DNA of 64,000 bases, taken from positions 47,653-111,652 of IMG/VR virus record IMGVR_UViG_3300031227_000017. One strand, written 5' to 3'. The position numbers and the translations under genes were made by a program. The notes under the pieces were generated by a model. That model was not told the origin of the DNA. It saw only the letters and a program-made list of their open reading frames with translations, and ran no database searches. The stretch comes from a virus. Of the stretch, positions 3,029 to 53,136 are shown one piece after another (position 1 is the stretch's first letter; every line of letters starts with the position of its first letter).

Positions 3029-3043
3029 ATCATCCCTTCGTAA

Positions 3044-9353: not shown

Positions 9354-9354
9354 T

Positions 9355-9371: not shown

Positions 9372-9388
9372 CTTGGGTGTTAAATTTG

Positions 9389-9712: not shown

Positions 9713-9743
9713 TTTATTGCAACCATAGGAAGGAGCCAGAAGA

Positions 9744-13709: not shown

Positions 13710-13800
13710 TCTAAATTTCTCCTTCAGTTGTCATCGTCGGAAACGATGGCCTTCCAAAATAAAGTAAGGTACAGTAAGTTTCTGAGTCCTATCAATTTTT

Positions 13801-14757: not shown

Positions 14758-14766
14758 CAGAATGTC

Positions 14767-16732: not shown

Positions 16733-17442
16733 TAGAGCTGAAGCTCTTGGATAGCCTTCAGCGTGTTCCACGGCATCAGCTTCTCGGGCTTGGTCTTACC
16801 GTTAGCCGGAATGAACGCAACACCGGCGCCCGCCACCCGGAGCGTGCCAATCATGCGACCGTCCTGTGTGAGCTTGAGCTCCGCACCGCCTTCGGGCAGT
16901 TCGATGCCGAGATGCACCTTAGGCAGCGCATCATTGTCCCGCAGAAGCCTGCGAACAGACGCCTTGAGCGATCGCGGATTTTCCGGCCTTACCGCAGGTA
17001 CCGAGAACTTCTTCTCTTTCTGATCCCGCAGCACCTTCTGCACGTAGGTCACCGTGCATTGTGCCTCCAGCGAAAGCTGCGTCGGCGTCTTGTCAGGGTA
17101 ACGCTCGGTGGTCCACAGGATCAGACGCTTCTTGCCGCCGTTTCGTCCATTCACGGGCGGGGACACGGGCGGGGTGGTGATCGTCGTCTTCCGCACCAAC
17201 GGCTTGCGAGGTCTCAACGCACGCAGTATCTTGTTGACGTACGAGCGGTCGCAGCCAACCTTGAACGCGATGTCGTCCTGATCGAGGTCTGGAAACTTCG
17301 TCGCCAGTCGCTCGATCGCTTCACGCTTGCAGCCGCGGGGCTTGCCCGACAAGCTGACCTTCTTCGCCACTTTGCGTTTCGGCACCTTCTTTTTCTTCCT
17401 CGGAAGTGCGGTCTTACTACTTCTCGTCTTTACTCTTGCCAT
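16732..17442 (-). CDS. DNA-binding protein with two helix-turn-helix repeats
   Basis: A 236-residue protein with a very basic N-terminus (KKKKVPKRKVAKK), then two similar helix-turn-helix units: DLDQDDIAFKVGCDRSYVNK (about residues 50-70) and TPTQLSLEAQCTVTYVQKVL (about 115-135). Duplicated HTH motifs joined by a Pro/Thr linker suggest binding to a direct or inverted repeat. The C-terminal 80 residues form a beta-rich domain. It is a good candidate for a transcription regulator or nucleoid-type factor of this phage. Confidence 0.87.
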   Translation of the reverse strand: MARVKTRSSKTALPRKKKKVPKRKVAKKVSLSGKPRGCKREAIERLATKFPDLDQDDIAFKVGCDRSYVNKILRALRPRKPLVRKTTITTPPVSPPVNGRNGGKKRLILWTTERYPDKTPTQLSLEAQCTVTYVQKVLRDQKEKKFSVPAVRPENPRSLKASVRRLLRDNDALPKVHLGIELPEGGAELKLTQDGRMIGTLRVAGAGVAFIPANGKTKPEKLMPWNTLKAIQELQL

Positions 17443-20688: not shown

Positions 20689-20919
20689 CTAGCCAGAAGC
20701 CTTGCCGCCGCACGCCATCAGGAACTCATAAAGTCGCTTCCGCCCACGAATTGGGTCTGAAAGTAGATCTGCCGAATCTTCGTAAAATATCTGCTTGCCG
20801 TCTTGGCTCTCCACGGACAGCCAATCGCCAGCAGGCAAAGCATCAGGATCATCCCCGTCACTCCACCCACTAACAATGACGTTACCGTTTTCCAGCCGCA
20901 GCTCAAAAGGGGATGTCAT
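20689..20919 (-). CDS. Small acidic protein, unknown
   Basis: A 76-residue protein whose start lies 17 bases inside the SSB-tail gene. It has a beta-hairpin-like N-terminus (FELRLENGNVIVSGW) and a helical C-terminus. No family recognised. It is the last gene before the nrdJ promoter gap. Confidence 0.75.
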   Translation of the reverse strand: MTSPFELRLENGNVIVSGWSDGDDPDALPAGDWLSVESQDGKQIFYEDSADLLSDPIRGRKRLYEFLMACGGKASG

Positions 20920-21442
20920 TTTCTCCTATTCCTTCCTCGGGTACGTCAACCTGCACGCTCCGTTTCTGCCGCGTCTCAAAGGACACTTCAGGGTTTTGCC
21001 GCCGCTCCCACATGTCAGTAACCCTGACAAACTCCGCGCGCATGCCGTCAAGTATGTCACGAGCCGGCTCCAAATCCAGCCCTTGGTAATTAGTACCGGG
21101 AATTGTTGACAGAATATCCATATCCGCGGCAGACTCGATCGCGTGCTCCAGCGTTTCGATCTTCGTACGCAGCACCGCGAGCGTCACCCACGGAAGCCCG
21201 AGAGCTGGCCCAGATACCAACTGTACCGAGGCGAGATCGTGCTCGAAGACGATGGCATCCCAGGATTCTTCCCCGAATAGCTTACACGCCTCCCAATCCT
21301 CGATCTCGCAAAGCTCCATACAGTTGGCCACAAGAGCCTCGAACGGCGAAATAGCCTCGTATAGCCGACCTGTCAACGAATCAACGCCGCGCTCGATATA
21401 CTGCGAGGCTATCGCGAATTTGCGTAATTGCTTGGTAGTCAT
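20903..21442 (-). CDS. Protein with SSB-like DIPF tail and tag
   Basis: A 179-residue protein; ATG 21442 overlaps the upstream stop as ATGA. The body is mainly helical and does not look like an OB fold. The C-terminus is remarkable: RQKRSVQVDVPEEG (a tag copy) followed by IGENDIPF. The last four residues and preceding acids match the acidic tip that single-stranded DNA-binding protein (SSB) uses to recruit partners. It may therefore compete for, or borrow, SSB-interacting host proteins. Function otherwise unknown. Confidence 0.85.
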   Translation of the reverse strand: MTTKQLRKFAIASQYIERGVDSLTGRLYEAISPFEALVANCMELCEIEDWEACKLFGEESWDAIVFEHDLASVQLVSGPALGLPWVTLAVLRTKIETLEHAIESAADMDILSTIPGTNYQGLDLEPARDILDGMRAEFVRVTDMWERRQNPEVSFETRQKRSVQVDVPEEGIGENDIPF

Positions 21443-21870
21443 AGGTATTTCGCTTTCAACTCCTGGTCTAGGAAGTACGAACACCGTTGACGCGTCTTGA
21501 CGGTCTGCCCAACATAATACTTCTTGAGCATCTTCTTGAGCTTCGTATCTTTGGATAGATCAACCAACTGCCACGTAAGCCGGGAAGCATCCCAGATACC
21601 GAGCGTAGACATCCACCCGGAATTGCCGTGAGCAGCCATCACCCAGTGCGTCCCGTCCTGGTTATGCCAGTAAGCGTCAAGGAAGAAGAAATCAGCAGAT
21701 GCCGCGTCCCGCAGCTTAAAACCGCAGCCCGGGTCGGCCTCGCAGATCTTCACGACCTCCACCAGAGACATATCATCCCGAGCAAACAACTCCTGCGACG
21801 TGACCGGTTTAGGGATCAGTGTCGGTTGAAACTTCTTCGGCCGAGGCCGCTTCGATTTACTTTTCGCCAT
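21439..21870 (-). CDS. Unknown protein with basic N-terminus
   Basis: A 143-residue protein with a Lys/Arg-rich start (AKSKSKRPRPKK), an aromatic middle (FFFLDAYWHNQDGTHWVMA) and a basic C-terminus. No family recognised. Start is 14 bases inside the upstream gene; stop overlaps the next start by ATGA. Confidence 0.82.
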   Translation of the reverse strand: MAKSKSKRPRPKKFQPTLIPKPVTSQELFARDDMSLVEVVKICEADPGCGFKLRDAASADFFFLDAYWHNQDGTHWVMAAHGNSGWMSTLGIWDASRLTWQLVDLSKDTKLKKMLKKYYVGQTVKTRQRCSYFLDQELKAKYL

Positions 21871-23341: not shown

Positions 23342-24053
23342 CCGGGATTTCGCCCTTTTCGATCGCGACGACCTTCAGACCGTAAGACTTGAGCGTCTCC
23401 ATCAACAGCTCTGCATAAGCGAGAGCCGCCTCGTCCTGCGTCACCTCGTCGCGGAGGAACTGGGCGAACAGAATACGGGTCCGTTCGCGGACGTTGGTGA
23501 TCGTGCTCGCGTCTTCGCCCATGACGCCGTCCGTCAGCGGTGTTGTCACCAGCTGCTTGACCGGTAACTTGTTCTCCCCCGCTGGTTCACTGGCGGAGAT
23601 CCAGATCGGCACACCGTCATACGGGCTGACGGGGCCGTCGATCGCGGGATCATTGGAGAGCGTCTCCAGATAAGCCGTATCGAACCCGACGAGCGGGCCG
23701 CCGGCCAACCGGCGAATCTCGACGAGCTCCTCACCGCCGCCCGCCGCAATCGTGGCGGTGCCGACATAGGAGGTACTGGTAACACACGCGTTGGGCGTAC
23801 GTGGCTCAGCCGCCGGCGACGTGCCATAGCACCCCACCTTGCGAACACTGGCCTCCCGTGGGATGCGGAAAAGGTCAAAAGACCCCTGACACGGTTCGTC
23901 ATCGATCCGCTCCGCCACACGGTTACGACAAACCCGCAGCTCACCGCTCACAACAGCGACACCGTTGAGAAACACGAACACGTCGTGTATCAGCAGATCA
24001 CCAAACTGGCAGTCATGATGCTGCCCCGCGGGGAAAATAATTTTCTGCATCAT
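23331..24053 (-). CDS. Unknown protein, possible recoded tag at its end
   Basis: A 240-residue protein with an N-terminal beta-rich region and a helical C-terminus (ERTRILFAQFLRDEVTQDEAALAYAELLMETLKSYGLKVV). It ends just before a tag-encoding frame in +1 (see 23246-23341). Start overlaps the upstream stop as ATGA. Function unknown. Confidence 0.84.
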   Translation of the reverse strand: MMQKIIFPAGQHHDCQFGDLLIHDVFVFLNGVAVVSGELRVCRNRVAERIDDEPCQGSFDLFRIPREASVRKVGCYGTSPAAEPRTPNACVTSTSYVGTATIAAGGGEELVEIRRLAGGPLVGFDTAYLETLSNDPAIDGPVSPYDGVPIWISASEPAGENKLPVKQLVTTPLTDGVMGEDASTITNVRERTRILFAQFLRDEVTQDEAALAYAELLMETLKSYGLKVVAIEKGEIPDGH

Positions 24054-25195
24054 TCGTCTTCATCTCCATAATTGAGATCAATAGCGCGTAGATTCCGGCC
24101 ACCATGCTGCGGCGGCGGAACAGGAGGACGCTCAATGGTATCACCCCAAAGGGCTAAACCGTGAGCGCCGAGTCGCCGCCGAAAGCCGGCAAGCGTGACC
24201 GGGCCAATATCTGGACAACCCAAGAAATCCGAAGCCGTGAACAGCAAGACGTCACGAACAGAACGAGGCGACTGAGTTTTTCCAAGACCAAGCCGCCGCA
24301 TGGCATCAGCCACGCGGGCCGGTATCTTGTCACCGTAAAGGTTCGTCCACGGCTGACTCAAGATCGTTGCATCCTCGATACCGAGGCGGTCTTCGGGATC
24401 TTCCCCGAGGAACTCAAGCTGCGCGACCTCCAGGTCACTATGGGTCACCCGCTGGTGGAAGGCCACGGCCACATCATGCACCGCGTCAATTACCGTCTCG
24501 TGTGAGGCACCGGGTTGCAACAACAGCCTGTCGTAACCACCCGAGGCGATTACCTCCGTCACCAGCGCCCGGTAGGTTTGCGAATTGTCAATATACTGAT
24601 CCCGCCACGCGATGGCGTCCAGCATCGCCTGCACCCACGACGCCTTATCCGTGACATAGCGGACGGTCCAACCGTGGTCATTCAACCGTTGGTGGTTATA
24701 AGCAAATGCCCGCCGCTTCAGCACACCCTCGGCGACAATTCGCACGTTAAGCCAACCGCGTCGCGTGTCGCGAGTTTGATAGATATTGGCATGCGACTGC
24801 GCAAGCGAGGCATCCGTAACATCCGCACCGTCCGGGACCGCCGGGAGATCCGTCACGAGCAACCCAAAGCGGGAAGCAACCGCCAACCGCGACTCTTGCC
24901 GCCCGGTCGCACGACCTTCCGTAAGACCCTGAAGCAGCCCAGCATCGAAGCCCGCGGCGTGCCCCTTATCATGACCCTTCTCGACGATCTCCTCGATCGA
25001 CTGCTCCGCCTGCCACTTCATCTGTCTGACCTCTTCACCAGCCACCTCGACCAGAGAATAAGCCTGGCGCGCTGCGTCATCTATCGCTCGCGTCCGCAGC
25101 TGTTTGGACTTCTTCCAACCGCTCCGATAACCGGCCAAATAACCGATCGGATGGATGACCGCCTCGTGGAGCCATCTCACAAATCTTCCAAGCAT
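24050..25195 (-). CDS. Tagged protein with an alpha-CTD-like HhH domain
   Basis: A 381-residue protein; ATG 25195 has a perfect AGGAGG site. Residues about 1-120 are helical with repeats of Gln/Glu/Lys. Residues about 310-365 (VRDVLLFTASDFLGCPDIGPVTLAGFRRRLGAHGLALWGD, given here only by its layout) follow the pattern of the RNA polymerase alpha-subunit C-terminal domain: a D-L/F-L helix, a C/P-D/N-I/L-G turn, an R-R-R-L helix and a G-L-x-L end. The protein ends GRNLRAIDLNYGDEDE, a model copy of the tag. It is the first gene of the operon that runs leftward to 14.8 kb. Confidence 0.85.
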   Translation of the reverse strand: MLGRFVRWLHEAVIHPIGYLAGYRSGWKKSKQLRTRAIDDAARQAYSLVEVAGEEVRQMKWQAEQSIEEIVEKGHDKGHAAGFDAGLLQGLTEGRATGRQESRLAVASRFGLLVTDLPAVPDGADVTDASLAQSHANIYQTRDTRRGWLNVRIVAEGVLKRRAFAYNHQRLNDHGWTVRYVTDKASWVQAMLDAIAWRDQYIDNSQTYRALVTEVIASGGYDRLLLQPGASHETVIDAVHDVAVAFHQRVTHSDLEVAQLEFLGEDPEDRLGIEDATILSQPWTNLYGDKIPARVADAMRRLGLGKTQSPRSVRDVLLFTASDFLGCPDIGPVTLAGFRRRLGAHGLALWGDTIERPPVPPPQHGGRNLRAIDLNYGDEDE

Positions 25196-25218
25196 ATTCA
25201 CCTCCTGTGAGTGACTAA

Positions 25219-27310: not shown

Positions 27311-27874
27311 TTATCCGCCGCCGTCCAGATCGATCACTCGCGGCTGCCGTCCAACCTCCCGCACGGGTCGGGATACCACGCCGGCAATTTCCACACGCGG
27401 TAGGCCGAGTATGTTTGCGAACTGCTCCGCGTTCTGCTCGGCGTCCGCACCGGCCTGCCGCATCAGGCGACGCCGCGAGGCCGCCTGTAACGCGTCGGGG
27501 CTCTCCGCCCGCGAGGCCGCAAACACCGCCACCCACGACGTCGGGGGGTTAGGTAATTCAATGACTTCCATCGTGTCAATATCGAAAGGTTCGCCGGCGT
27601 TGCCGAGGAAGGAGCACGTAGGCTCGCCTTCGTCGTCCTTGTAGTCTTCGAGGTCCTGCTCTGACACCAAGTACCTGTCGAGCTTGTCGGCGTCTACAGC
27701 GGCATCTAGGGCCTCCTGGAGCGAACTCCCAAAAACCACACAAACGGGGGAGCCGTGGTCGTGTAACAGCCACGGCCGGACGTTGTGAGGGTTCGACTCG
27801 TTGGACGGAATCCAATCGTCGAGCTCCGCAACGTCCTCGTCACTGAACGTGATCATGCCGTAGGTGAACTCCAT
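27311..27874 (-). CDS. Unknown protein with C-terminal RxIDLD tag
   Basis: A 187-residue acidic protein ending GRQPRVIDLDGGG, one of the best tag copies. The first half (ITFSDEDVAELDDWIPSNES, then PWLLHDHGSPVCVVFG and a helix ALDAAVDADKLDRYL) recalls short orphan proteins I have seen in environmental bacteria, but I cannot name a family. It overlaps the upstream gene by one base. Confidence 0.84.
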   Translation of the reverse strand: MEFTYGMITFSDEDVAELDDWIPSNESNPHNVRPWLLHDHGSPVCVVFGSSLQEALDAAVDADKLDRYLVSEQDLEDYKDDEGEPTCSFLGNAGEPFDIDTMEVIELPNPPTSWVAVFAASRAESPDALQAASRRRLMRQAGADAEQNAEQFANILGLPRVEIAGVVSRPVREVGRQPRVIDLDGGG

Positions 27875-28614: not shown

Positions 28615-29496
28615 TCATTCTTCGGATCTTCGGTTGTAAAAGGCGTCAACCAGTCGGTCGACGTCAGTAGCACCCGCCGGGTGGCAAATGTCTGCTTGGT
28701 AGACGAACGCCGATATTTGCGTACCGTTCGCGTCTGTTGCACACACGAGCTCTTCCTCTGCCGCCGTCTGAGTGTCGCGGTCAACCACGAGAAACGTCGT
28801 CAACGGTATCATGTCGTACGGGCAGCGGATGTCCTGGACTGACCCGCCGTGAACTGAAACCACGACAAGGGGATTATCCAACATCGCGATGACCCGATCG
28901 GCGAGAGTCTCGGTCTGGCAGGTGGCGAGCAGGTCCTCCGGTTCCCCGGGGATACGTCGCTCGACACGCCATCGGTCGTTCGCCCGGTTGTGCCGCTTCA
29001 CCAGATTGCCATCTTCCTGTTCGCCCGACACGGCTGGGCCGCGGACCGGTAGGACGTCAGTAATAGGCCGAGGCATCTCAGTAGGCCCCAGCGGTATCTC
29101 GCTGCACGGGTTGTTGGTACGCGGTACGTCAAAGAGCGCCCCCGGCGATGACACGTATTCCGTAACAGCCCACGTGATCACTGTCGGAACCATTCCGCTG
29201 TTGGAATCCGGGACGCTGTTGCCCCGCATCTCTCGCTGTATATCGCCGCGGGTGTACCACTCCTGCCCGTGGGTCGTATCACCGCGCTGTAAATAGCCTT
29301 GTATGAGTTCGCCGATGCGGTTTTGCCCGACGTAGCAGCTAAGTCGCTCAGATATGGCAGCCACCGGAACTACTAAACCTTCCGGTTCGCGCGACACCCG
29401 TATGTGGTTGCCGGCGTTATCCAACTGCACGATTGTCCGATGCCACTGATCGTCGTCGCCGAGCCGATTTGCGTGCAAGATCAAGTGCCATGCCAT
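28615..29496 (-). CDS. Unknown protein with a reductase-like NPCSEIPL motif
   Basis: A 293-residue protein. In the middle it contains TNNPCSEIPLGP, which closely matches the active-site finger loop of ribonucleotide reductases (NPCGEIPL type). No other reductase element is present and the protein is far too short, so this is either coincidence or a peptide mimic. The rest shows a beta-rich N-terminus and an Asp-rich C-terminus. Function unknown. Confidence 0.82.
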   Translation of the reverse strand: MAWHLILHANRLGDDDQWHRTIVQLDNAGNHIRVSREPEGLVVPVAAISERLSCYVGQNRIGELIQGYLQRGDTTHGQEWYTRGDIQREMRGNSVPDSNSGMVPTVITWAVTEYVSSPGALFDVPRTNNPCSEIPLGPTEMPRPITDVLPVRGPAVSGEQEDGNLVKRHNRANDRWRVERRIPGEPEDLLATCQTETLADRVIAMLDNPLVVVSVHGGSVQDIRCPYDMIPLTTFLVVDRDTQTAAEEELVCATDANGTQISAFVYQADICHPAGATDVDRLVDAFYNRRSEE

Positions 29497-33993: not shown

Positions 33994-34826
33994 TATTCAG
34001 TCCAGTTCTGCATTTCTTTTTTGAGATTTCTGTAAACGTAACGTGCCGTCACGTCTTCGCGTGCTGGTGTGTTAATCACCGAGTATCCGACAGCTTCCAG
34101 CGACCAGACCACTTCACTCGCAACCTCGTGACGCGCCTCATTCTGCGCGTACACGTAGTCGTCAATGCCGCCGCAGGAGCTTTCATATTCGTTATCATGC
34201 TTAATGACGAATTCACAATGCACCCGCCACCACTCCCAGCCGTTGAGATACCACTGGGTCAGCTGCGCAACGTAGCGGCGTTCCCAGAGTGCTGTCATCT
34301 CAGCAGCTACTTGCTTGCTGGCGCCGTTATATCGCATGTGCTGGAAGAATCCAGCTTTATTATCCTGCGCATGATCGCAGTCCTTGATATGCACACGAAA
34401 CGTCTCGCCGTCAGAGTGGGCGTAGCCCTGACACTCCTGAAACTGATCAGACGTCGTGCGACTGTAACCGACGTTACATTTATGGCACCACTCTGTGAAC
34501 ATTTCGCGACTGTGGTCCCAGCCGTCATTCTCCACCCACGGAGCGGTCATCCCCTCATCTTGCGACACGAGCGTGGCTTCAAACACGTCGTCGTATTCAA
34601 TAAAACACGGCATGGAGACCTTACTAGCCTCCTCGACCGTTACTAGACCGTGCGTACCTGTGTTAGTACACGAAGTTTTCGTCTCAATATGCAGGGTGCT
34701 GTCTTCACGCCACCGCGATTCGGTGGTGTGAAAACCGCCGCCCTCCCGTTCCGTTACTGTCCGAAACTCCTCTTCCGGGGCATCCGGGGTGAGGGGATCT
34801 AAGACGATGGAACGCAGTTGCCGCAT
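33993..34826 (-). CDS. Unknown protein with N-terminal RxIDLD tag
   Basis: A 277-residue protein beginning MRQLRSIVLDPLTP, a tag at the extreme N-terminus. The middle has cysteine and histidine pairs (WCHKCNVGY, HIKDCDHAQ) that could bind zinc, and the C-terminal third is helical. No family recognised. Start shares TGATG with the upstream stop. Confidence 0.84.
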   Translation of the reverse strand: MRQLRSIVLDPLTPDAPEEEFRTVTEREGGGFHTTESRWREDSTLHIETKTSCTNTGTHGLVTVEEASKVSMPCFIEYDDVFEATLVSQDEGMTAPWVENDGWDHSREMFTEWCHKCNVGYSRTTSDQFQECQGYAHSDGETFRVHIKDCDHAQDNKAGFFQHMRYNGASKQVAAEMTALWERRYVAQLTQWYLNGWEWWRVHCEFVIKHDNEYESSCGGIDDYVYAQNEARHEVASEVVWSLEAVGYSVINTPAREDVTARYVYRNLKKEMQNWTE

Positions 34827-35146
34827 CAGCTTTCGTCCGCGTTTTCGTCCGCGGCTTCGCCCTCGGCCGACTCCGTACCAAGATCAAAAGTCCGATCCTC
34901 TTCGTCGTCATCGGATGAACCTTCATCCGGGGATGGTGGTGACAGGTCTTCCGCCACGCTGTCCCAGAAATTTTTGATCCGATCGGCAACCGACCCGTCG
35001 AGGATCTGTTCCTCTCCGCTGTGATAGCAGATGCGGATACTCACGTCGCCCGCGTTCTCCGGTTCCGCGTCAGCGATATACGCTATCGAGAACATGTTAA
35101 TTCGGATGCTGCTGGCCGGTATCGTTATGAATGGCATTGTTGACAT
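34826..35146 (-). CDS. Small protein with acidic tail
   Basis: A 106-residue protein from ATG 35146, with GGAG ten bases upstream; it lies partly inside the RNase H gene (50-base overlap). A beta-rich N-terminus (MFSIAYIADAEPENAGDVSIRICYHSG) is followed by an Asp/Glu/Ser tail. Unknown function. Confidence 0.78.
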   Translation of the reverse strand: MSTMPFITIPASSIRINMFSIAYIADAEPENAGDVSIRICYHSGEEQILDGSVADRIKNFWDSVAEDLSPPSPDEGSSDDDEEDRTFDLGTESAEGEAADENADES

Positions 35147-35834
35147 TTTCCGTGTGCTCCTCTGATGGATTGATGTGATAGATGTCGATCGCCTCACCCG
35201 TCTCCGGGTCAGCAAATCGAATCTGGGCAACGGCCTCCAAGGCTCGCTGCGTGATGCCTTCCGGGAAGTCAACGTGCTTCGCGGCCTGCTGGAGCTCCCG
35301 CCGGGCCATGCCGGCGATCAGATCCGCAGTCCAGTTAAGCTGTGACGTCGAGCGGTTGGCCCAATGAAAGTGGCAGTGGTAGCCGAGCCGCCGAAACTCT
35401 CGCATGGCGGACCAGTACGCAATGTTAGCCCGTGGCAGCTCGCCACTAGGCATCATTGCTTTCGTGCCCCAGCGGGCGACGGTCTGGCTGTCCGTGATAA
35501 TATGGACGTTGATCAGCCCACGAGTACGCAGACGCTCACGGCCATATTTTGCGTCAAACCAAGACAGGGCCTGAAGATACGGCATCGACTCCGCGGAGTT
35601 GATTGAGCCGAGATTCATCGCGCCCCACACGATCTTGCGGAAGCGGGTCTGGCTGTCTATGAGCACACCAGACCAGCCGCAAGCAGTGTTCCAGCCTGCG
35701 CCGCTGCCATCGCCTACAATGAGCAAATCCCACTTGGGTGAGCCGATACGCTCAAGAACCGCCTGGAGTAGCTCCACCTCCGGGACTCGGTGTTTGTCCG
35801 GCTTCGAGCGACTGGAGTTCCTGCTTTTTGCCAT
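35097..35834 (-). CDS. RNase H-fold nuclease
   Basis: A 245-residue protein with an RNase H layout: VGDGSG with GWSGVLID (first Asp), AESMPYLQAL (Glu), VHIITDSQTV (second Asp) and ADLIAGMARREL (last Asp). It would remove RNA from RNA-DNA hybrids or process primers. ATG 35834 has AGGAG at the right distance although it lies 83 bases inside the upstream gene. A 49-base segment (35243-35291) that encodes AAKHVDFPEGITQRA is nearly identical, inverted, to part of the small gene at 26295-26573. The disordered tail is His/Asn-rich. Confidence 0.85.
   Translation of the reverse strand: MAKSRNSSRSKPDKHRVPEVELLQAVLERIGSPKWDLLIVGDGSGAGWNTACGWSGVLIDSQTRFRKIVWGAMNLGSINSAESMPYLQALSWFDAKYGRERLRTRGLINVHIITDSQTVARWGTKAMMPSGELPRANIAYWSAMREFRRLGYHCHFHWANRSTSQLNWTADLIAGMARRELQQAAKHVDFPEGITQRALEAVAQIRFADPETGEAIDIYHINPSEEHTENVNNAIHNDTGQQHPN
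35243..35291 (-). repeat. 49-base inverted dispersed repeat, copy 2
   Basis: Matches the plus strand of 26355-26403 with one difference (C for T). It lies in the C-terminal part of the RNase H gene. Confidence 0.85.
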
Positions 35835-44499: not shown

Positions 44500-45138
44500 T
44501 TACTCCTCATGAGGGTCATCCAGATCGATGACACGTTCCCTGTTGTTCCCGCTGGCTACGGTGCCACGAGAATCGCTAATCGTTTCAGTAGGCATCGCCG
44601 GGGGCATATTATCCGCCGGCTGAACCGCAGGGTCTTCTGACCCCGAGGGAGCATACTCATACTCCACGAGCACCTGCATGATCCAGTCACACAGCAAATC
44701 AATATTATCGATCAGCTTGTTTTCGAGATCAGGCCCGTCACGGTGCTGCACACGACATCGCCATTTCGCGTCCGCAAGATCCGTAATAGTTCTCGGTGTC
44801 TGTCTGGTCGCGAGTGTGATGATCAATGTGTAATCGTTATCCAACGCCTGAGCAACCTGCGGCGGCTCTTCCATCCGCTCAATGAAGTTGCGAAAGGAAC
44901 TACCGGGAATCACACGAGCCCCGTCTGTTACCGCAAAGCCGCTAGCGTGCAATTCATCGAATATGTCGAACACCGGATCAAAGAAATGGATGATCCCGTC
45001 CCGTAGTGTTACTGCATCCGTCGCTGCACTTGTGGGTGCGTGAGCACGCTCGCGGGCAGCCTCCAGCGACGCCTGGACCTTGCTCCGCCGCGGTGGCGGC
45101 CCCGGTCGGCGCGGGTATCGATGTGCTCGTCTTGTCAT
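44500..45138 (-). CDS. Unknown protein with C-terminal RxIDLD tag
   Basis: A 212-residue protein. The N-terminus is Arg/Pro-rich (HRYPRRPGPPPRRSK); a mixed domain follows (residues about 45-150) and a disordered linker leads to GNNRERVIDLDDPHEE, a perfect tag copy at the C-terminus. The tag is thus displayed on a flexible tail. Start overlaps the upstream stop (ATGA). Confidence 0.84.
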   Translation of the reverse strand: MTRRAHRYPRRPGPPPRRSKVQASLEAARERAHAPTSAATDAVTLRDGIIHFFDPVFDIFDELHASGFAVTDGARVIPGSSFRNFIERMEEPPQVAQALDNDYTLIITLATRQTPRTITDLADAKWRCRVQHRDGPDLENKLIDNIDLLCDWIMQVLVEYEYAPSGSEDPAVQPADNMPPAMPTETISDSRGTVASGNNRERVIDLDDPHEE

Positions 45139-45887
45139 CTTACGCTGATCTCCACGCCGGTTTCTTCAAAGGTTTCTTGTAAATGCTCTTCCCAGCTAGT
45201 CTCCACTGGACCAGTCTGGTCCCAGCAAAGCCCGCAAGCGGAGCAGGTGACCTTAGGGCCATCCGTTATGCCAGTCTCCGCTAGGCACACGGTAACGCCG
45301 TTGGCTTCTCGCATGATCGTATCAGGTCTGTCACGAAATACCAAATCACAATCGTTCGGAGTCAGTTCCGCGTCAATATCGTCGATAGCCATGTAGGCTC
45401 TCCGTACCCCGCGAATAAGCGGGGCCGGGCCAGTCTCTCGGTCGATCGACCACCACATCTGAAAATTCGGAAGGGCGGCCAGTCGAATCAGTTCCGGCAA
45501 CAAGTCCTCTTGTCGCCAAGATCGGGTGTAAGCGAAGAACTGCACATCAGGCAGCGCGGACGCTATGCTATACCACTTATTGATATATTCCGCATCATAG
45601 AAGTCTCCACCAACATGGATACGCATCACGCGGGCGAACGTGGCCAGCAGCGATGCGATCATCCAAGCAACGAATGCCGCTGTCTTGGAAAAGTCGAAGT
45701 TTCTAAGATGCGATCTCTTTACAACCCTCTGGTTGAAATGCCCTCGCTTGGCGTAGCAGCATCCGCGACACAGGCGAGACTCGCCTACGCACGACCACAA
45801 CTTACCACACGGGACAGACCAACTGTGAATGAGGTGACCGAGTTTCACGTTACGTGGCTCGGACAATGTAGCGATTTTGGTGCTCAT
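45135..45887 (-). CDS. Gp88-domain phage protein
   Basis: A 250-residue protein. The order KLGHLIHSWSVPCG, CRGCCYAKRG, RIHVGGDFYDAEYINKWY, FFAYTRSWR, WWSIDRETGP and LVFRDR matches the Gp88 domain known from mycobacteriophages and other phages. The family is widespread and its biochemical role is unclear; the Cys cluster may bind metal or an iron-sulfur cluster. A second cysteine group (CSACGLC) sits near residue 215. Confidence 0.85.
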   Translation of the reverse strand: MSTKIATLSEPRNVKLGHLIHSWSVPCGKLWSCVGESRLCRGCCYAKRGHFNQRVVKRSHLRNFDFSKTAAFVAWMIASLLATFARVMRIHVGGDFYDAEYINKWYSIASALPDVQFFAYTRSWRQEDLLPELIRLAALPNFQMWWSIDRETGPAPLIRGVRRAYMAIDDIDAELTPNDCDLVFRDRPDTIMREANGVTVCLAETGITDGPKVTCSACGLCWDQTGPVETSWEEHLQETFEETGVEISVR

Positions 45888-47048
45888 TTAACCTAGATCG
45901 ATGTCACGGAGAGCTTTCCCGTGTTCGGCCTCTAATCGTTCGAGTTCGGACGGATCGAGAACCTCACGAAGGAAACCCTCTAATTGTGAGGTCTGGTATT
46001 CTGCTCCTGGGTTTTTCCACGGCGGCGTTTGCTGAATCGCGTCAGATGACTTCGATAAAGCATATTGCCGCAGGTAGCTGTAGACATCCTGCGGGAACGT
46101 CAATTCCCGCCTGATCGCTTCTTGGAGCAGTGCGCGAAACGCTGGCTGTGCCCGGAGCCATGACTTAGCTTCCAGTGCCAGCGATCCATTCCCGCGTGTT
46201 GGGGAGTATTGTGTAAATAACTGCGTACACTCTCGCACCAGATAGATAATTGTCTGCCATAGGTGCTGATCTTCCATGTCGGAGATCTGATAGGTCCACA
46301 CGCCACCGGAATCGTCCGGGGCTGGTATGGTCCATTTTTCGGTATCGTACCAATTGACTATAGGAGGCTGCGGCGCATCAGGGGTCGGGACGGCGGCCGC
46401 TTGTTCTTGCTCCTGCTCCTGCCGTCGTTGAAAGCCCTCCCGCTGCCTACGACCCACGCGTTGGGGGTCAAACGTCGTGCGTATTACAGCACGAGCTTGC
46501 GTTGACATGTCGCCAGAGTCCTCGGGTAGATCACTCGCATTCGTACGTCGGCCGAACAGTGCATCAAAATTCTGTCGTTCGTCCTCCTCCGCTTCGGCTG
46601 CCGTGACGACGCGACCACTTCGTAAGTGCATGCGGCCATCTGGTAATCCGGTAAGCGGAATATCAACACAGGATTGAGGCACTGAGACAGTATTGCCCTT
46701 TGCCGCGTTCGCCCACATTGTTGAGAGCTCCAGTAACGCATGCCCCGGCTGGTTCTCCACGCCAAACTGTTCGATGAAATGTGAGAGTCTATCTGCGATC
46801 GCCTCTGTTGCGCGCTGCTGACGACGGCGTCGTGGCAGGTAGACCAACAGTACGACATACGACATCTCCGCAGGGAGCATCGTCCAGCTGGCGATCCTTA
46901 TTAGATCTGATTCCGTCAAGGTCGTCCGCATGCCCGGAGTCATCCCGGACCACTCTATGCTGCCACCAGCCGTGACGATGTCATCACGTAGGTCCATGAC
47001 ACTATGTGCCATTTCGTCGGTCCGAAATAATAAGGCTGCGTCGTTCAT
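45888..47048 (-). CDS. Unknown protein with C-terminal RxIDLD tag
   Basis: A 386-residue protein with N- and C-terminal helical domains joined by a Gln/Glu-rich linker (REGFQRRQEQEQEQAAAV). It ends EHGKALRDIDLG, a tag copy with Gly in place of the last Asp, at the very C-terminus. No enzyme motif. It abuts the Gp88 gene with no gap. Confidence 0.84.
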   Translation of the reverse strand: MNDAALLFRTDEMAHSVMDLRDDIVTAGGSIEWSGMTPGMRTTLTESDLIRIASWTMLPAEMSYVVLLVYLPRRRRQQRATEAIADRLSHFIEQFGVENQPGHALLELSTMWANAAKGNTVSVPQSCVDIPLTGLPDGRMHLRSGRVVTAAEAEEDERQNFDALFGRRTNASDLPEDSGDMSTQARAVIRTTFDPQRVGRRQREGFQRRQEQEQEQAAAVPTPDAPQPPIVNWYDTEKWTIPAPDDSGGVWTYQISDMEDQHLWQTIIYLVRECTQLFTQYSPTRGNGSLALEAKSWLRAQPAFRALLQEAIRRELTFPQDVYSYLRQYALSKSSDAIQQTPPWKNPGAEYQTSQLEGFLREVLDPSELERLEAEHGKALRDIDLG

Positions 47049-47061
47049 AATAGCACTCCTG

Positions 47062-47505
47062 CTAGTCTAACATGATCCCTCGAAGCGGACGTCCGTCGAA
47101 GCGAGGGATCTTTTCCTCTGCTTCCTGGATATTCTGCACCATAATGGGCTCGCGGTCAACAGGTGTGGCATTACATACCGAGATCCCCATCATGGCGTCG
47201 GTGTGCTTGCACCGCCGTAGCTTGCCGGCCTTCGCGAACGCCCAACCCGGGCAGTTGCAGGAGACCCGCTTCTCTTGGGTGGCCGGATCGGTCCACTCCA
47301 CAGTGGTGTAAGTCGAGAGCCCGTTGGTGGACTCCCAATGCTGCACCCGGGCCGGAACCTGCGGGGCGCCATTGACGAGCATGTTCCCTTTCGAGAAGGC
47401 CACGCCGTCCTGGTGTTGGACAGAGGCGAAGTCGGGATCAACGCGATTAGCCGCGTCAGCCCGTTCCCGTGTCTGTGTCCTGGTTGTCTGTTGGGTAGTG
47501 CTCAT
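47062..47505 (-). CDS. SWIM zinc-finger protein with C-terminal RxIDLD tag
   Basis: A 147-residue protein from ATG 47505, which overlaps the upstream small gene's stop. RVSCNCPGWAFAKAG...CKHTDAMMG shows the SWIM pattern CxC...CxH, a metal-binding module that contacts DNA or protein. The protein ends DGRPLRGIMLD, a tag copy as its final residues. Function unknown. Confidence 0.86.
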   Translation of the reverse strand: MSTTQQTTRTQTRERADAANRVDPDFASVQHQDGVAFSKGNMLVNGAPQVPARVQHWESTNGLSTYTTVEWTDPATQEKRVSCNCPGWAFAKAGKLRRCKHTDAMMGISVCNATPVDREPIMVQNIQEAEEKIPRFDGRPLRGIMLD

Positions 47506-47657
47506 TGGAGCCCTTCCGCGTCGCAGTCGACGCATACGGCACTGCCATCGTGCTGCACACGTGCGATCTCCACATTGGATCGCCCGCAGTAATCACACAG
47601 GTCAGGCCACTTTGTCGGGTCTTTCGGTTTGGCGTCAGTATTTTGATCTTCTGCCAT
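47502..47657 (-). CDS. 51-residue zinc-ribbon protein
   Basis: A short gene translated by hand from ATG 47657 to TGA 47502. The protein has CDYCGRSNVE and CVDCDAEG, a four-cysteine zinc ribbon, after a disordered N-terminus. It ends with a 4-base overlap with the SWIM gene, which supports its being real. Confidence 0.75.
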   Translation of the reverse strand: MAEDQNTDAKPKDPTKWPDLCDYCGRSNVEIARVQHDGSAVCVDCDAEGLQ

Positions 47658-47762: not shown

Positions 47763-48935
47763 TTACCCGGCGCGACCAAAATCGAGGTCGATCGCACGGA
47801 ACTCTTTGCCGAATGCTTCCAGGTCTTCTTGCTGCCCTTCGGCCGCAGTCACCTCTTGCATGAAACCATCGATAGCCGCCGTGAAGCCCGAGTTCGCAGC
47901 CGTAACTGCGTCGAGACTCTTGGGGGTCGTAATGTTGAGCCTGCGTTCGAGGTCCTCCATCTGGTGGAGCAGGTCCTCGTTCGTGCAAAACTCAAACATC
48001 CGAATCTTTTCGATGGCCCGGCGGATTGGTGTGAATGATTTCTCAGACACGCGTCCGTTACGGTTGATCAGATCGCGAAGATTGGAGAGGGCTTCCGCAA
48101 GCTGGTCGCGAGGACCCCGGATCATCTCTTCGACCGCAGACTCGACTTGGCGGGAGCACGCATCTCTTACGATTTCGTGGTGCTCAGCCAGATCGGAAGC
48201 GGACAGTTCGCTGTTGCCGGTGTTACCAGCCAGTTCGATCGGAACGACATCCAGGAAGAACTTGCCACGCATGGCAGAAGCACTTCTCGGGATCTTCGAC
48301 TCAACCTGCTCGAACACGTCGCTCTCGCGGCGAATCTGGTTCAGGATGTCATCGAAATCCGCCACGAACTCGTCGGCCATTTCAGCCAGTTCGTAGGCGA
48401 TGCTCTGCTGGTCCCGGCTAGGGTCACGCACAGGCGTTGACGACGGAAGGTCATACCCAAGCCGCGTTCGCACGTCGTGAATACGTGTCTCGATCTGCTC
48501 CGCCATGAGGATGCTGTCCGCGTCACGGTATCGCTGGGCCTTGTGGGTCAGCGTACCGATCGTGTCGCCAAACAGCTCATACATGAGCGCCGCACCTTTG
48601 TTCTTCGGCACAACACGCACCCCAGTGATGGGAAACTTGACCGAGAACATGTCCTTGACTCGCTCCAGCCGGCTATCAAGCCGTTGGAATCGTTTCTTCC
48701 ACGACGTGCCAAGACGGTCGACCGGGTACCGGTCATTGATCAGCTTCGCACGGGGCGTCGTAACGTCGTTCTTCGCGACAGAGATATTGTCAACGGTGAC
48801 ATCCGTCGTCTGCCGCGGCAGTTGGTATTGCCCCTTCCACCAGCCGATGGAGGGAGCGAGGAGAATCACATGCTCCTCAAGCGCGTCTTGACGCGTGGTT
48901 ACGGGCTGACTCTCAGTCATAGGAATGGTACTCAT
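47763..48935 (-). CDS. Unknown protein with C-terminal RxIDLD tag
   Basis: A 390-residue helical protein. The layout IGWWKGQYQLPRQ, then LGTSWKKRFQRLDSRLERV and FPITGVRVVPK, resembles the build of DUF3150-type phage proteins, but only loosely. A coiled middle and an Asp/Glu-rich C-terminus lead to FGKEFRAIDLDFGRAG, a clear tag copy. Transcription comes from an upstream terminator-bounded unit (see 48975-49009). Confidence 0.84.
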   Translation of the reverse strand: MSTIPMTESQPVTTRQDALEEHVILLAPSIGWWKGQYQLPRQTTDVTVDNISVAKNDVTTPRAKLINDRYPVDRLGTSWKKRFQRLDSRLERVKDMFSVKFPITGVRVVPKNKGAALMYELFGDTIGTLTHKAQRYRDADSILMAEQIETRIHDVRTRLGYDLPSSTPVRDPSRDQQSIAYELAEMADEFVADFDDILNQIRRESDVFEQVESKIPRSASAMRGKFFLDVVPIELAGNTGNSELSASDLAEHHEIVRDACSRQVESAVEEMIRGPRDQLAEALSNLRDLINRNGRVSEKSFTPIRRAIEKIRMFEFCTNEDLLHQMEDLERRLNITTPKSLDAVTAANSGFTAAIDGFMQEVTAAEGQQEDLEAFGKEFRAIDLDFGRAG

Positions 48936-49598: not shown

Positions 49599-49979
49599 TT
49601 AATCGAACTGCGGTGTTGGGATGCTGTGCGCGTGCAACCAATCCGCTTCGGCCTCCAGGGCCAGTTCGCGGGTGTCGAACGGTCCAAGCACGGGACCTTC
49701 GGACGGCAACAGATCAGCGAACCATTTGTCCGGCGGGTACATGAGGGCTGCCGTCTCCGTCAAGGTGGCGGCGGTTTCGCCTGTGTAATTGCGGTAAACC
49801 CAGTCGCGTGCATCGTCAGAGATGCCGCTACCGGGCTCCACGTGGGAAGCGCGAGCGATTTCCTTCTCCCCGAGTGCCGAAGCGACTGCGTTCACCGCCG
49901 GGCCGTAAAGACCACGGGGTGAGGCTGCTCCAGAACTGATACCGTCTCGCGGGATGATCATGCGTTCTTGCTTCGCCAT
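49599..49979 (-). CDS. Unknown protein downstream of DUF2997
   Basis: A 126-residue protein from ATG 49979 with a mainly helical sequence and several Gly/Pro turns (GISSGAASPRGLYGPAV). A 7-base gap separates it from the DUF2997 gene, so they are cotranscribed. Function unknown. Confidence 0.8.
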   Translation of the reverse strand: MAKQERMIIPRDGISSGAASPRGLYGPAVNAVASALGEKEIARASHVEPGSGISDDARDWVYRNYTGETAATLTETAALMYPPDKWFADLLPSEGPVLGPFDTRELALEAEADWLHAHSIPTPQFD

Positions 49980-49986
49980 ATTACTA

Positions 49987-50196
49987 CTACTCGCCTTCCC
50001 GTAGAAACTCTTGACGTTCTTCGGTGCGGTAATAGTCTGAGGTGAGTTCTTCGTTTTCCACCGAACCAATGGCGGCCTCGAAAGCGGCACTGGCCGTCTG
50101 GCATTCACTGCCCGTGAACCCCTCGGTCGTGATCGTGGGTGTGCGAGTGCCTTTACTGATCCCCTTCAGCGGGACCATCATGCGAATTACTTTCAC
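49987..50196 (-). CDS. DUF2997-family small protein
   Basis: A 69-residue protein. TTEGFTGSECQTASAAFEAAIG followed by LTSDYY matches the conserved centre of DUF2997 (G-F-x-G-x-x-C-x-x-A...L-x-x-x-Y). This family typically occurs beside Ycf35-like (DUF1257) genes in Cyanobacteria and Planctomycetes, as it does here. Role unknown; it may be a small partner of the Ycf46-like ATPase. Confidence 0.82.
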   Translation of the reverse strand: MKVIRMMVPLKGISKGTRTPTITTEGFTGSECQTASAAFEAAIGSVENEELTSDYYRTEERQEFLREGE

Positions 50197-50232
50197 GGTT
50201 ATGTCTCCAAAGTTTATTGACGGACGTAAAAA

Positions 50233-50268
50233 AACGATAGCCAGAGATGCGGCTCCCTGACTATCGTT
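50233..50268 (-). terminator. Terminator after the Ycf35-like gene
   Basis: AACGATAG at 50233-50240 pairs with CTATCGTT at 50261-50268, with further pairing inward. The minus strand then reads TTTTTTACG. It separates the Ycf35-like gene from the DUF2997 gene. Confidence 0.75.
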
Positions 50269-50291
50269 CGGCGACGCGAGGATGCGAGGTC

Positions 50292-50660
50292 CTACGTTGA
50301 TGCGAGTTGGGTCATGATGACCTCAACGTCGCCACCTTCTTGGTCGACCGTCTCGACGGTGTAACCTTGTTCGGCCGCTTCGATCTTCGCAGTTTCGATC
50401 GTGTAGCTTTGGACCAGCTTGTCCAATTCGATCTGCTTGCCCCACGACCCGCCGTAGTTGTCGTAGTGGGCGACGCCCTTTTCGTCGATGACGACGGGAT
50501 ACTGCCAATCGGGCAGCTTGAAGCCGACACCTTGGACGTGCTGGCCGCCATACATCTTGTGGTTGCCCACGCCAAGACTGGTGAGGCCCAGTTCGCCGAT
50601 CGCGGTGTTGAGAGCGTCGGTGTTGGTCAGATTGACCTTGCATTTTACAACATGACTCAT
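50292..50660 (-). CDS. ycf35: Ycf35-like protein (DUF1257)
   Basis: A 122-residue protein that begins MSHVVKCKVNLTNTDALNTAI and ends YTIETAKIEAAEQGYTVETV...GDVEVIM, matching the DUF1257/Ycf35 family in order and spacing. Ycf35 is conserved in cyanobacteria and some chloroplasts and is of uncertain function. Its presence beside DUF2997 and a Ycf46-like ATPase in a phage is unusual. A 115-base gap lies upstream. Confidence 0.85.
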   Translation of the reverse strand: MSHVVKCKVNLTNTDALNTAIGELGLTSLGVGNHKMYGGQHVQGVGFKLPDWQYPVVIDEKGVAHYDNYGGSWGKQIELDKLVQSYTIETAKIEAAEQGYTVETVDQEGGDVEVIMTQLAST

Positions 50661-50775
50661 TGAGATCTCTCCTGTAAAAGGGAAATTGGTCGGGCCGTCG
50701 CCCGAGACACGTGTCAGATACTAAGTGTAAACGATGCTGCCCGGGATACGCAACCCCGGACAGCCAAGAAGAAGC

Positions 50776-52434
50776 CTAATTGTCGATCTCGACCGAACGC
50801 TGAGCGCGTCCATGCTGCTTACCACTACTGATAGTCAGCGGCGTCGTTACGGGCCTCGCTTTGTCCTTACAGAACTTACGGATGGCCTCAACACCTTCGC
50901 TATCCCGCTGGCTGATGGGTACGATGCTGGCAGCCGCTTCGATAATCTCCTCGAACGTGGGATCGCCCGTGTGGCGTTTCTCAAACGCGATGTACCGGGC
51001 TTCCCGGACAGCTTCCTCGATCTCAGAACCGACGAAACCGTGGAGTTTCTCCGTGATCATCGTCCAGTCGTCGGTGTCCAGCCCCATACTCAGCATATCC
51101 ACGCCACGCTTCTTGAAGTGGATCTCCATGATCTGCTGGCATTCGACCGAGTTCGGAAGGTCGGTGTACCACATGGCGTCGAAACGGCCGGCCCGCGTCA
51201 GTTCAGGCGGCAGGCCTTCGGTGCGGTTCAGCGTCATGATGCAGAACGTCTTCGACTGGTTTTCAGCCAGCCACGTCAGGATCGTGCCGAACACACGCTT
51301 GGTCACACCCGAGTCACCTTGACTGGTGTGGGCGTGCCCCAGGGCCTTGTCCGCTTCATCGATCAGCAGCACGCAGCCTTTTTGGGCGTCGATCTGCTTC
51401 AAGACGTCGTGAGTCCGCTGCTCCGACTCTCCGACAAGACTGCCGAACAGCGAGCCGATGTCGAGGATGTAGCCGGGCAAGCCCAGCAGCTGGCAAGTCG
51501 CCTTGCCCACCATCGATTTTCCGGTACCGGGAAGTCCCAGCAGCACGACACCACGAGGGTAGTCGATGTTCATCGCGCGGGCGGACGGGAGGTACGCCTG
51601 CTTACGTCGTTCAAGCCACGTCAGGTACTGGTCGAATCCGCCGATCTCCTCACGAGAGGCGATGGCACCTTCGGGAATGTAGGTCAGCACCTCACTCTTC
51701 TTCACGATGGCCGCCTTCTCGTCTTTGATCGTCGACAGCATCTCCGGGGAGAACCCACTGTGACGGACAAGGCAGCGTGCCAGACAGTTCTCCGCCTCGT
51801 TGGCGGTCAACCCGAGAAGGTTCGTGACCAGCTGTGCTCGCAGTTCGTCAGTGCATTGCGCCTTCTCCGGGTCTTTCGACTCGATACTTTGGCGAACGAA
51901 CTCGACGGTGCGGGCCAGCTTGGCCTCGCCTGGAAGCAAGAATTCCACGACAGAGATGTTAGCTTTCACCTTGTCGTGGATCGAGAGCTTCGGCGACAGG
52001 ATGATGATGGGCCGCTTGTGCTTCTTATTCACCAAGCGGTTGCCTTCCGTCAACGTGCGGATGCGCCGGCGGACATTAGTGTCCACCATGAAGTCATCCA
52101 AGTCACGGAAGATGAAGACCTGATTGCCGTTGAACAAGGCCTCATCGTTGAGAGCCTCCAACGCCGACACCGCGTTCTTGTACTTGTTGTTCCCCGACAG
52201 CGCGTCGCAGGAGAACCCCTCGTAACAGTCCCACGTGACCACGCCCATATTCAGGCGACGGGCCACACGCGTGATCTCGACCTCGGCTCGCGCCTCTTCG
52301 GCCGTATGCACGTAAAGAGCTTGATAACCAGCACGCAGATGTTCGTCCAACAGCTGGGCGAAATCGTTATCCTCGGTGACGAGGCCGGTATTGGTATCTT
52401 CCGCGGGGGCTGGTTTCGTCGTTTTCTTAGCCAT
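50776..52434 (-). CDS. ycf46: Ycf46-like AAA ATPase with C-terminal RxIDLD tag
   Basis: A 552-residue AAA protein. The N-terminal domain (residues about 20-220) with DDFMVDTN and a Walker-like IFRDLDDF precedes the AAA core: Walker A GLPGTGKS (near residue 297), Walker B VLLIDEADKAL (near 360), sensor FCIMTLNRTEGLPPEL, and arginine-finger region RAGRFDAMW. This two-part layout is that of Ycf46-type ATPases from cyanobacteria and plastids. It ends QHGRAQRSVEIDN, a tag copy as the last residues. It is the leading gene of the Ycf35-DUF2997 unit and may remodel or unfold tagged proteins. Confidence 0.88.
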   Translation of the reverse strand: MAKKTTKPAPAEDTNTGLVTEDNDFAQLLDEHLRAGYQALYVHTAEEARAEVEITRVARRLNMGVVTWDCYEGFSCDALSGNNKYKNAVSALEALNDEALFNGNQVFIFRDLDDFMVDTNVRRRIRTLTEGNRLVNKKHKRPIIILSPKLSIHDKVKANISVVEFLLPGEAKLARTVEFVRQSIESKDPEKAQCTDELRAQLVTNLLGLTANEAENCLARCLVRHSGFSPEMLSTIKDEKAAIVKKSEVLTYIPEGAIASREEIGGFDQYLTWLERRKQAYLPSARAMNIDYPRGVVLLGLPGTGKSMVGKATCQLLGLPGYILDIGSLFGSLVGESEQRTHDVLKQIDAQKGCVLLIDEADKALGHAHTSQGDSGVTKRVFGTILTWLAENQSKTFCIMTLNRTEGLPPELTRAGRFDAMWYTDLPNSVECQQIMEIHFKKRGVDMLSMGLDTDDWTMITEKLHGFVGSEIEEAVREARYIAFEKRHTGDPTFEEIIEAAASIVPISQRDSEGVEAIRKFCKDKARPVTTPLTISSGKQHGRAQRSVEIDN

Positions 52435-52449
52435 TTTCTTTTGTCTTTC

Positions 52450-53136
52450 CTACTTTTGCTCGAAAGATCGTAGCATATTATTCACTACATCTTTCGCGTT
52501 GCCATTCCGTAGCTGCAACTGATCCAGCTGCTGCGACATGCGAATTAGGTTCTCCTTGACCAGACGATTGATCTCTTCCGTCTTCGATGCTTCGAGATCG
52601 TAGATGGCGTTGAACATTGTCGGGTCATCAGAGAAGTCACTCTGCACGAGTGCGGCGGGATTGCTTTCGCGCACCGCTATCTTGAGCACGTCAGGTGGCG
52701 ATATGATGCCCTCGGCGTCGAGAGCAGCTCCAATGTAGGCGACGATCTCATCACTGAATGGATTCTCGTCGTCCTCATCAGGCTCCGCCAGTAACATAGC
52801 CTCGGTAATTGCCCATGCGACTTCAGCGGCGTCTGCGGGTTCCCATGCGCGGGGATCGTACGTGTCCCCGGACAAGATATTCGCAAACTCGTTGAAATCA
52901 GGGAGGTTCTTGTAAAACGCGTCTGATACGACGAGATTGATACCCGTCATCAGCCGGTCAAATACCCGGTTAGGTATCTTGGCTTGGAAATCAGCTTCGA
53001 TCTCCAGCTTCAACGTCTCGGGTAGCCACTCGAAGCACTCGGTGCCGAAGTGATCGACAACCGCGATAACGAGCGTGGTAGCGAAGGATTCGCCACTTTG
53101 GAAAGCATCACGGTAACTGCTCTGTACTTGCGGCAT
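52450..53136 (-). CDS. Unknown protein upstream of the AAA ATPase
   Basis: A 228-residue acidic helical protein. ATG 53136 has GGAG upstream. 'SSYRDAFQSGESFATTLVIAVVDHFGTECFEW' followed by TLKLEIEADF is a pattern I associate with conserved phage orphans; the C-terminal half is coiled (MSQQLDQLQLRNGN). A role in assembly is possible. It precedes the ATPase by 15 bases, suggesting co-transcription. Confidence 0.83.
   Translation of the reverse strand: MPQVQSSYRDAFQSGESFATTLVIAVVDHFGTECFEWLPETLKLEIEADFQAKIPNRVFDRLMTGINLVVSDAFYKNLPDFNEFANILSGDTYDPRAWEPADAAEVAWAITEAMLLAEPDEDDENPFSDEIVAYIGAALDAEGIISPPDVLKIAVRESNPAALVQSDFSDDPTMFNAIYDLEASKTEEINRLVKENLIRMSQQLDQLQLRNGNAKDVVNNMLRSFEQK

Follow-up and report, generated by a model that had tools for sequence, protein, structure and literature searches.

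Cyanobacteria and many red-algal plastids retain the Ycf35, Ycf46 and DUF2997 proteins. A first-pass annotation of the DNA described here called the function of these proteins poorly understood and, indeed, none is established for Ycf35 or DUF2997. In cyanobacteria, the genes for the two small proteins form a cluster with a ferredoxin gene, duf2997-ycf35-fed7 (PMC4284462). As for Ycf46, its loss in Synechocystis lowers the activity of the carbonic anhydrase EcaB (Jiang et al. 2015, cited in PMC7496141), and the CO2-utilisation phenotype is reported for Synechocystis only (PMC7496141). Here, we describe a linked set of the three genes in a phage, IMG/VR virus record IMGVR_UViG_3300031227_000017 (111,652 bp). 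The window analysed is the last 64 kb of this record, which encodes a phage DNA polymerase, primase, topoisomerase, UvsX, ribonucleotide reductase, SbcC-like and tail-fibre proteins. The cassette, composed of a Ycf46-type AAA+ ATPase, a DUF1257 (Ycf35-like) protein and a DUF2997 protein, has the look of a protein-remodelling machine of general use and not of a host-derived photosynthesis gene, because the same three genes turn up in phages of several bacterial groups, an archaeal virus, many non-photosynthetic bacteria and one archaeon. It is not unique: the families are known, and the linked, phage-borne form is a variant of them. No paper naming both ycf35 and phage was found in the open-access library searched.

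The locus resembles the cyanobacterial duf2997-ycf35-fed7 cluster in its adjacent DUF1257 and DUF2997 genes, but it includes the ATPase gene, and no ferredoxin gene adjoins. The cyanobacterial genomes checked have ycf35 next to the DUF2997 gene and ycf46 at another place, whereas the phage ATPase gene is linked to both. Ycf46 (Synechocystis Slr0374, plastid ycf46), a COG0464-type AAA+ protein, shares the Walker motifs and the SLVG pore-loop region with the window ATPase. In contrast to the phage protein, which falls in a separate deep clade, cyanobacterial Ycf46 mostly lacks the C-terminal R-x-hydrophobic-x-hydrophobic ending. MoxR-vWA systems, such as RavA-ViaA and p618-p892 of the two-tailed virus, also combine an AAA+ ATPase with dedicated partners, and some of them are viral. 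However, they belong to a different AAA clade and their partners are unrelated; the comparison drawn here is one of analogy.

Identity of the three proteins

The assignment of the ATPase to the Ycf46 family held. The protein is 33-35% identical to cyanobacterial Ycf46 along its length (residues ~25-527, E down to 2e-88), and its AAA active site is intact. It also matches phrog_8638 over the whole length, a family that PHROG labels as of "unknown function". A degenerate N-terminal AAA-like domain (~residues 20-235) is followed by an active AAA domain, a lid and a short tail. The active domain carries Walker A (GLPGTGKS), Walker B (LLIDEAD), the sensor Asn403 and Arg414/417, and the Walker, sensor and Arg columns are invariant in the family alignment. 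The N-terminal half has no Walker A, and in profile comparison it aligns to its own family's AAA domain and lid (probability 89, E 2e-6); the chain thus has two AAA domains, the first of them dead. No peptidase domain was found in the Pfam scan. An identity as FtsH protease was rejected, as the zinc metalloprotease domain is missing and the protein ends ~25 residues past the Ycf46-like region. Processive unfoldases typically carry an aromatic pore-loop residue; the corresponding region of the window ATPase, SLVGESE, has none. On the opposite strand, an antisense frame of 579 aa (window 50734-52473, + strand) spans the entire ATPase gene and is preferred over it by a longest-ORF picker. It is probably a by-product of codon composition.

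Profile searches had been named beforehand as the result that might overturn the assignment of the two small proteins, and they support that of DUF2997 directly and that of DUF1257 through its relatives. With 43.9 bits, the DUF2997 protein clears the Pfam cut-off of 24.1. Its cysteine (C32) is invariant across 25 aligned DUF2997 sequences, and its predicted structure consists of two strands and one helix. Searches of solved structures with DUF2997, by sequence and by profile, returned chance-level matches only.

The DUF1257 protein of the window, taken alone, stays just under the PF06868 cut-off (19.3 against 22.2 bits, E 0.0013). The assignment holds because its positional equivalents in other phages pass, namely those of Rhizobium phage L338C (36.8 bits), Aeromonas phage HJ05 (34.6) and Pseudomonas phage FBPa45 (24.3), which moreover adjoin DUF2997 genes that are also above cut-off. 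An iterated profile scores the window protein at E 4e-29, with a seed alignment that already contained it. The conserved MSH start (MSHVVKCK...) and a C-terminal Q-x-Y block (LVQSYTIETAKIEAAEQGY) align with the relatives. A tblastn search with this protein against the named phages gave no match because the sequence is too diverged; the relatives came from position and profile. In Deltaproteobacteria, the His of the MSH start is replaced by Phe. The Planctomycetes DUF1257-like protein keeps the C-terminal half only, behind a hydrophobic N-terminal segment, and was therefore not leaned on. The structural model is confident, with a strand-helix-four strands-helix-two strands order. Compared with PDB folds, its best match is RnlA (E 0.046), followed by TBP-like folds at E ~1; a TBP-like topology is a hint from the model, not evidence. 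In a viral structure library, there was one clear match, the 128-aa A0A125SJ50 (E 4e-6). Its length equals that of gp09 of Acidianus tailed spindle virus, but the name of the entry is unconfirmed. Overall, we regard the family identity of the three proteins as nearly certain.

Spread and age of the viral cassette

Relatives of the ATPase were gathered from IMG/VR, named phages, and bacterial and archaeal genomes. A scan of viral contigs with the single ATPase protein found no relatives, and an alignment-based scan succeeded. The counts cover 64 viral loci, each with such an ATPase and at least 2.5 kb of downstream DNA, and 69 cellular loci. In the viral set, DUF1257 and DUF2997 genes each occur in 13 loci and both occur in 12, a joint occurrence showing that the gene arrangement is not due to chance. 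Both small genes were found in 19 of the cellular loci. At the level of 20 whole genomes with such an ATPase, searched with the Pfam models, DUF1257 and DUF2997 are present together in 16 and both absent in four. At least seven records of named tailed phages and about a dozen IMG/VR contigs have the three genes in close proximity. The description of the window genes as an intact, clustered minus-strand set is matched by a linkage that recurs in viruses and cells.

The families had been attributed to cyanobacteria, plastids and Planctomycetes. Those groups stand, but the list was too narrow. The cellular carriers of the tight cluster include Deltaproteobacteria, Planctomycetota, Chloroflexota, Omnitrophota, Riflebacteria and one Asgard-type archaeon (Candidatus Borrarchaeum), and phages and an archaeal virus have to be added. 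In the latter, Acidianus tailed spindle virus, the cassette corresponds to gp08-gp09-gp10. Its small genes were found by a model blind to them (E 5e-4 and 8e-7), and its DUF1257-like protein begins with MSH. In Rhizobium phage RHph_I4, the depositors had already annotated both small genes as these DUFs. The Rhizobium phages RHph_I4 and L338C, Aeromonas HJ05, Rhodobacter RcTiptonus, Agrobacterium JP1 and Pseudomonas Samunavirus FBPa45 share with the window the order ATPase, DUF1257, DUF2997 and a small neighbour of the phrog_38408 type. Unlike the window, they have an extra gene of ~200-240 aa between the ATPase and DUF1257 genes; in JP1 and FBPa45 there are two. They also lead into replication genes, whereas the window lineage has a DUF3150 gene downstream.

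Pairwise distances are correlated among the three proteins (r 0.56-0.60 over 39 loci, 0.35-0.52 over 20 viral loci), with none of 2000 permutations as high, as expected if the genes travel together. A maximum-likelihood tree of 63 ATPases, whose root is not fixed, distributes the viral rows over several groups. Set against the cellular homologues, the window ATPase belongs to a deep viral clade, where it groups with the IMG/VR contigs L013 (56% identical) and L015 (support 100/100), outside all cellular rows. L013 also keeps the gene order, with genes of 90, 150 and 230 aa upstream and DUF3150 and GP88 genes downstream. The deep clade and the conserved order speak for an old phage lineage and not for a recent acquisition from a host. 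On this sequence evidence, the cassette is long resident in phages. The view that it is integrated in phage biology, and no recent passenger, is thereby upheld, although not through the C-terminal tag on which it had been based.

A core function in photosynthesis is unlikely, given that viruses carry all three genes outside photosynthetic organisms. Since cultured phages of genetically tractable hosts (Rhizobium, Agrobacterium, Rhodobacter, Pseudomonas) have the cassette as a compact mobile module, it offers small systems for knockout and assay.

Possible function and rival explanations

An AAA+ chain with a dead domain, two small partners and no protease points to a remodeller of protein complexes, and we consider this part of the interpretation likely. 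As a member of the Ycf46/Ycf35/DUF2997 group by sequence, the system would work like other AAA+ remodelling chaperones. The ATPase would form a ring in which the second AAA domain hydrolyses ATP, and the inactive first AAA-like domain may be structural or regulatory. The DUF1257 protein, with its conserved MSH start, and the DUF2997 protein, with its one invariant cysteine, would be dedicated adaptors or cofactors. Such a machine could rearrange or pull apart protein complexes without degrading them. In the window phage, its clients would most likely be replication or recombination proteins.

This choice of client is tentative, with chances somewhat below even. It follows from the neighbours found elsewhere. 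In RHph_I4, the cassette runs into genes for a DnaB-like helicase, a DNA polymerase, a primase and RecA; in L338C, the gene at the corresponding place matches an O-like initiation profile. In Candidatus Borrarchaeum (L119:4256-10690), the order DUF1257-DUF2997-ATPase is directly followed by Mre11/SbcD-like and Rad50/SbcC-like genes. The same SbcD cluster lies nearby in four phage contigs (L026, L052, L075, L081). Furthermore, the window phage itself encodes SbcC-like, polymerase, primase and UvsX proteins. Probably the core activity is common to all lineages, each with a client of its own. The weakest step is the idea that the shared C-terminal ending may be a docking peptide recruiting partners such as the DUF3150 protein, which we find doubtful. 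As a whole, the proposal of a phage-resident Ycf46-Ycf35-DUF2997 system that uses ATP and two adaptors to remodel, without proteolysis, what are probably replication or recombination complexes has in our estimate about an even chance of being correct.

Several points weigh against this proposal. To our knowledge, the client has not been defined experimentally for any member of the family. The neighbours vary by lineage (radical SAM and Hsp70-like genes in Deltaproteobacteria; radical SAM, TPR and T2SSE in Planctomycetes; ferredoxin in cyanobacteria), and hence a replication client is only one among several readings. The window cassette does not stand beside replication genes, and many viral Ycf46-like ATPases occur without both small partners. 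The distance correlations are uncorrected for shared ancestry. DUF2997 alone models poorly, and searches of solved structures with DUF1257, by sequence, profile and fold, gave no significant likeness.

Alternatively, the cassette might serve virion assembly, the ATPase and its adaptors folding or assembling head or tail proteins in a MoxR-vWA-like manner. There is a precedent, as a MoxR-vWA pair is needed for tail development in the Acidianus two-tailed virus and has been proposed for some jumbo phages (PMC7824862). The cassette also comes directly after the tail/lysis block in several of the named phages, and the relative in Acidianus tailed spindle virus stands beside a gene annotated as virion structural protein. 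However, a replication block lies on the other side, no vWA partner was seen, and the operon-borne cellular homologues have no virion; we consider this role unlikely. A redox role, in which the DUF2997 cysteine and DUF1257 help to build or repair a metal or sulphur centre, chaperoned by the ATPase (iron-sulphur maturation), would fit the ferredoxin gene of the cyanobacterial cluster, the radical SAM gene that Deltaproteobacteria and Planctomycetes have next to their cassettes, the one invariant Cys, and the retention of ycf35 and ycf46 in red-algal plastids, which has been tied to iron-limited marine habitats (PMC5940233). Yet only a single Cys is conserved, the His of MSH gives way to Phe in Deltaproteobacteria, and most cassette phages show no adjoining ferredoxin or radical SAM gene, so that a redox function appears quite unlikely.

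That the genes are auxiliary metabolic genes from a cyanobacterial host, tuning carbon use or photosynthesis during infection, is highly improbable. The EcaB phenotype of Synechocystis, as cited in the source above, and the cyanobacterial origin of the nearest abundant cellular homologues would favour it. Against it, the window ATPase sits in a deep viral clade outside cyanobacteria, and the cassette is also present in Rhizobium, Agrobacterium, Rhodobacter, Aeromonas and Pseudomonas phages and in an archaeal virus. The chance that the two small genes have nothing to do with DUF1257 and DUF2997 and match these Pfam families fortuitously is practically negligible: the single-sequence DUF1257 score is indeed under the cut-off, but DUF2997 passes with E 2e-11, and the idea is already contradicted by the many independent loci that repeat the order and whose genes exceed the cut-offs of both families.

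C-terminal ending, neighbouring genes and gene layout

Among 117 minus-strand open reading frames (ORFs), 12 have a motif of the form R.[ILVM][DENQ][ILV] within their last 14 residues, against 0.7-0.9 expected. With a 25-residue span and a slightly wider motif, 17 ORFs are found (~1.8 expected). The ATPase, ending in RSVEIDN, is additional to the 12, since the gene picker chose the antisense frame. The phage-wide tag proposed in the first-pass annotation thus exists. The claim that the ATPase acquired it did not stand, because in other viral contigs 52 of 80 Ycf46-like ATPases carry the same ending (shuffles 4.5), as do 28 of 48 at <70% identity (shuffles 2.2) and five of 17 at <50% (shuffles 0.9). 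Among non-cassette cellular ATPases, mostly cyanobacterial Ycf46, it is present in one of 59. Members of the DUF3150 family end in FRKLSV, TRRLDLEL, SRVMDVE or TRGIDL, and the ~210-aa partner in alphaproteobacterial phages in RKLKL or RAVKL. From these sequences, the ending is a trait of viral Ycf46-type ATPases and their close partners that is unusually widespread in the window phage. A spread in the reverse direction, from the ATPase to other phage proteins, is equally possible. Regarding other phages, a spread of the tag was not seen in Catdawg (ATPase only) or FBPa45 and was slight in RHph_I4. A sliding clamp (DNA_pol3_beta_2) was considered as tag receptor and rejected, with no match in the record.

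The ending might be a docking signal for the Ycf46-DUF1257-DUF2997 machine, borne in many viruses by the ATPase and by the partners next to it and having spread, in the window phage, to about one protein in ten. We judge this unlikely; if true, a viral AAA+ machine would gather a tagged set of phage proteins. In any case, the ending adds a directly testable hypothesis on client choice.

C-terminal R-x-[ILV]-[DENQ]-[LIV] endings stand on many unrelated window proteins (16265-16771, 20903-21484, 24050-25201, 27311-27874, 44500-45138, 45888-47048, 47062-47535, 47763-48935) and on further genes at record positions 8941-9993, 13727-15844 and 28782-29366. The product of window 20903-21484 has an SSB-like acidic tip, GENDIPF, after a tag-like RSVQVD, and no Pfam or PHROG match. 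A similar motif is N-terminal in two genes at record 2941-3354 and 16069-17196 (MRDRIIDLDG, TERNRIVQLD). One tagged protein, at record 34813-35763 (L095:3014-3964), has a DUF1016 N-terminal domain (PF17761, E 3e-9).

The features of the locus are collected in Table 1, where transcription runs from the ATPase gene through the DUF1257 to the DUF2997 gene. Each of the three genes has a plausible ribosome-binding site. Because a strong terminator separates DUF2997 from the gene before it, a single transcript for the whole set is too simple a picture, and the DUF2997 gene would be reached via read-through or its own promoter, for which no convincing candidate was found.

Table 1 Features of the cassette and adjoining genes, in window coordinates
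Feature	Position	Strand	Evidence
Ycf46-type AAA+ ATPase, 552 aa	50776..52434	-	PF00004 E 7e-24; phrog_8638 E 7e-109
ATPase C-terminal ending RSVEIDN (R-x-hydrophobic-[DE]-hydrophobic)	50779..50799	-	sequence
DUF1257/Ycf35-like protein, 122 aa	50292..50660	-	PF06868 19.3 bits; iterated profile E 4e-29; model pLDDT 87.7
DUF2997 protein, 69 aa, GTG start	49987..50196	-	PF11211 43.9 bits, E 2e-11; invariant Cys (residue 32)
Intrinsic terminator, DUF1257/DUF2997 intergenic	50232..50269	-	16-pair stem, 6-nt loop, T tail; fold z-score -4.54
126-aa gene adjoining DUF2997	49599..49979	-	profile comparison prob 91, E 1e-6 with small-neighbour cluster of other cassette phages
DUF3150-family protein, 390 aa, C-terminal motif FRAIDLDFGRAG	47763..48935	-	profile comparison prob 100, E 1e-64

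The 126-aa gene is probably related to the small gene of phrog_38408 type at the equivalent place in other cassette phages; phrog_38408 itself matches that neighbour in the Rhizobium and Aeromonas cassette phages. The DUF3150 protein is a recurrent neighbour of the cassette, the profile match being to a cluster from nine loci. Alone, it scores 16.2 bits against the Pfam cut-off of 24.9, and its L013 orthologue passes (30.8 bits, E 2e-7); the kinship is established through the profile comparison and this orthologue. In the window as well as in L013 and L015, a gene for a GP88 family protein (PF17338, E 2e-33; window 45135-45887) lies not far from the cassette. GP88 is a phage family without assigned function. 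Elsewhere in the window, the gene for the SbcC-like protein (4517-6649) is followed by a 320-aa gene, possibly for SbcD (6639-7601), whose product has the tag-like C-terminus RVVEL.

In Deltaproteobacteria, a five-gene operon (L146, L149, L152, L157, L163, L168 and relatives) encodes the ATPase, DUF1257, DUF2997, a radical SAM protein (Fer4_12) and an Hsp70/MreB-like protein of 890 aa. Viral contigs without the cassette (L017-L091), which form a larger Catdawg-like ATPase group, have their own companions, namely a ~280-aa protein (44 loci) and a 114-aa protein starting with MPCDT (33 loci). Profile comparison rejected both as distant DUF1257, DUF2997 or DUF3150 members. Several of the ~280-aa companions end in RALEL-like motifs.

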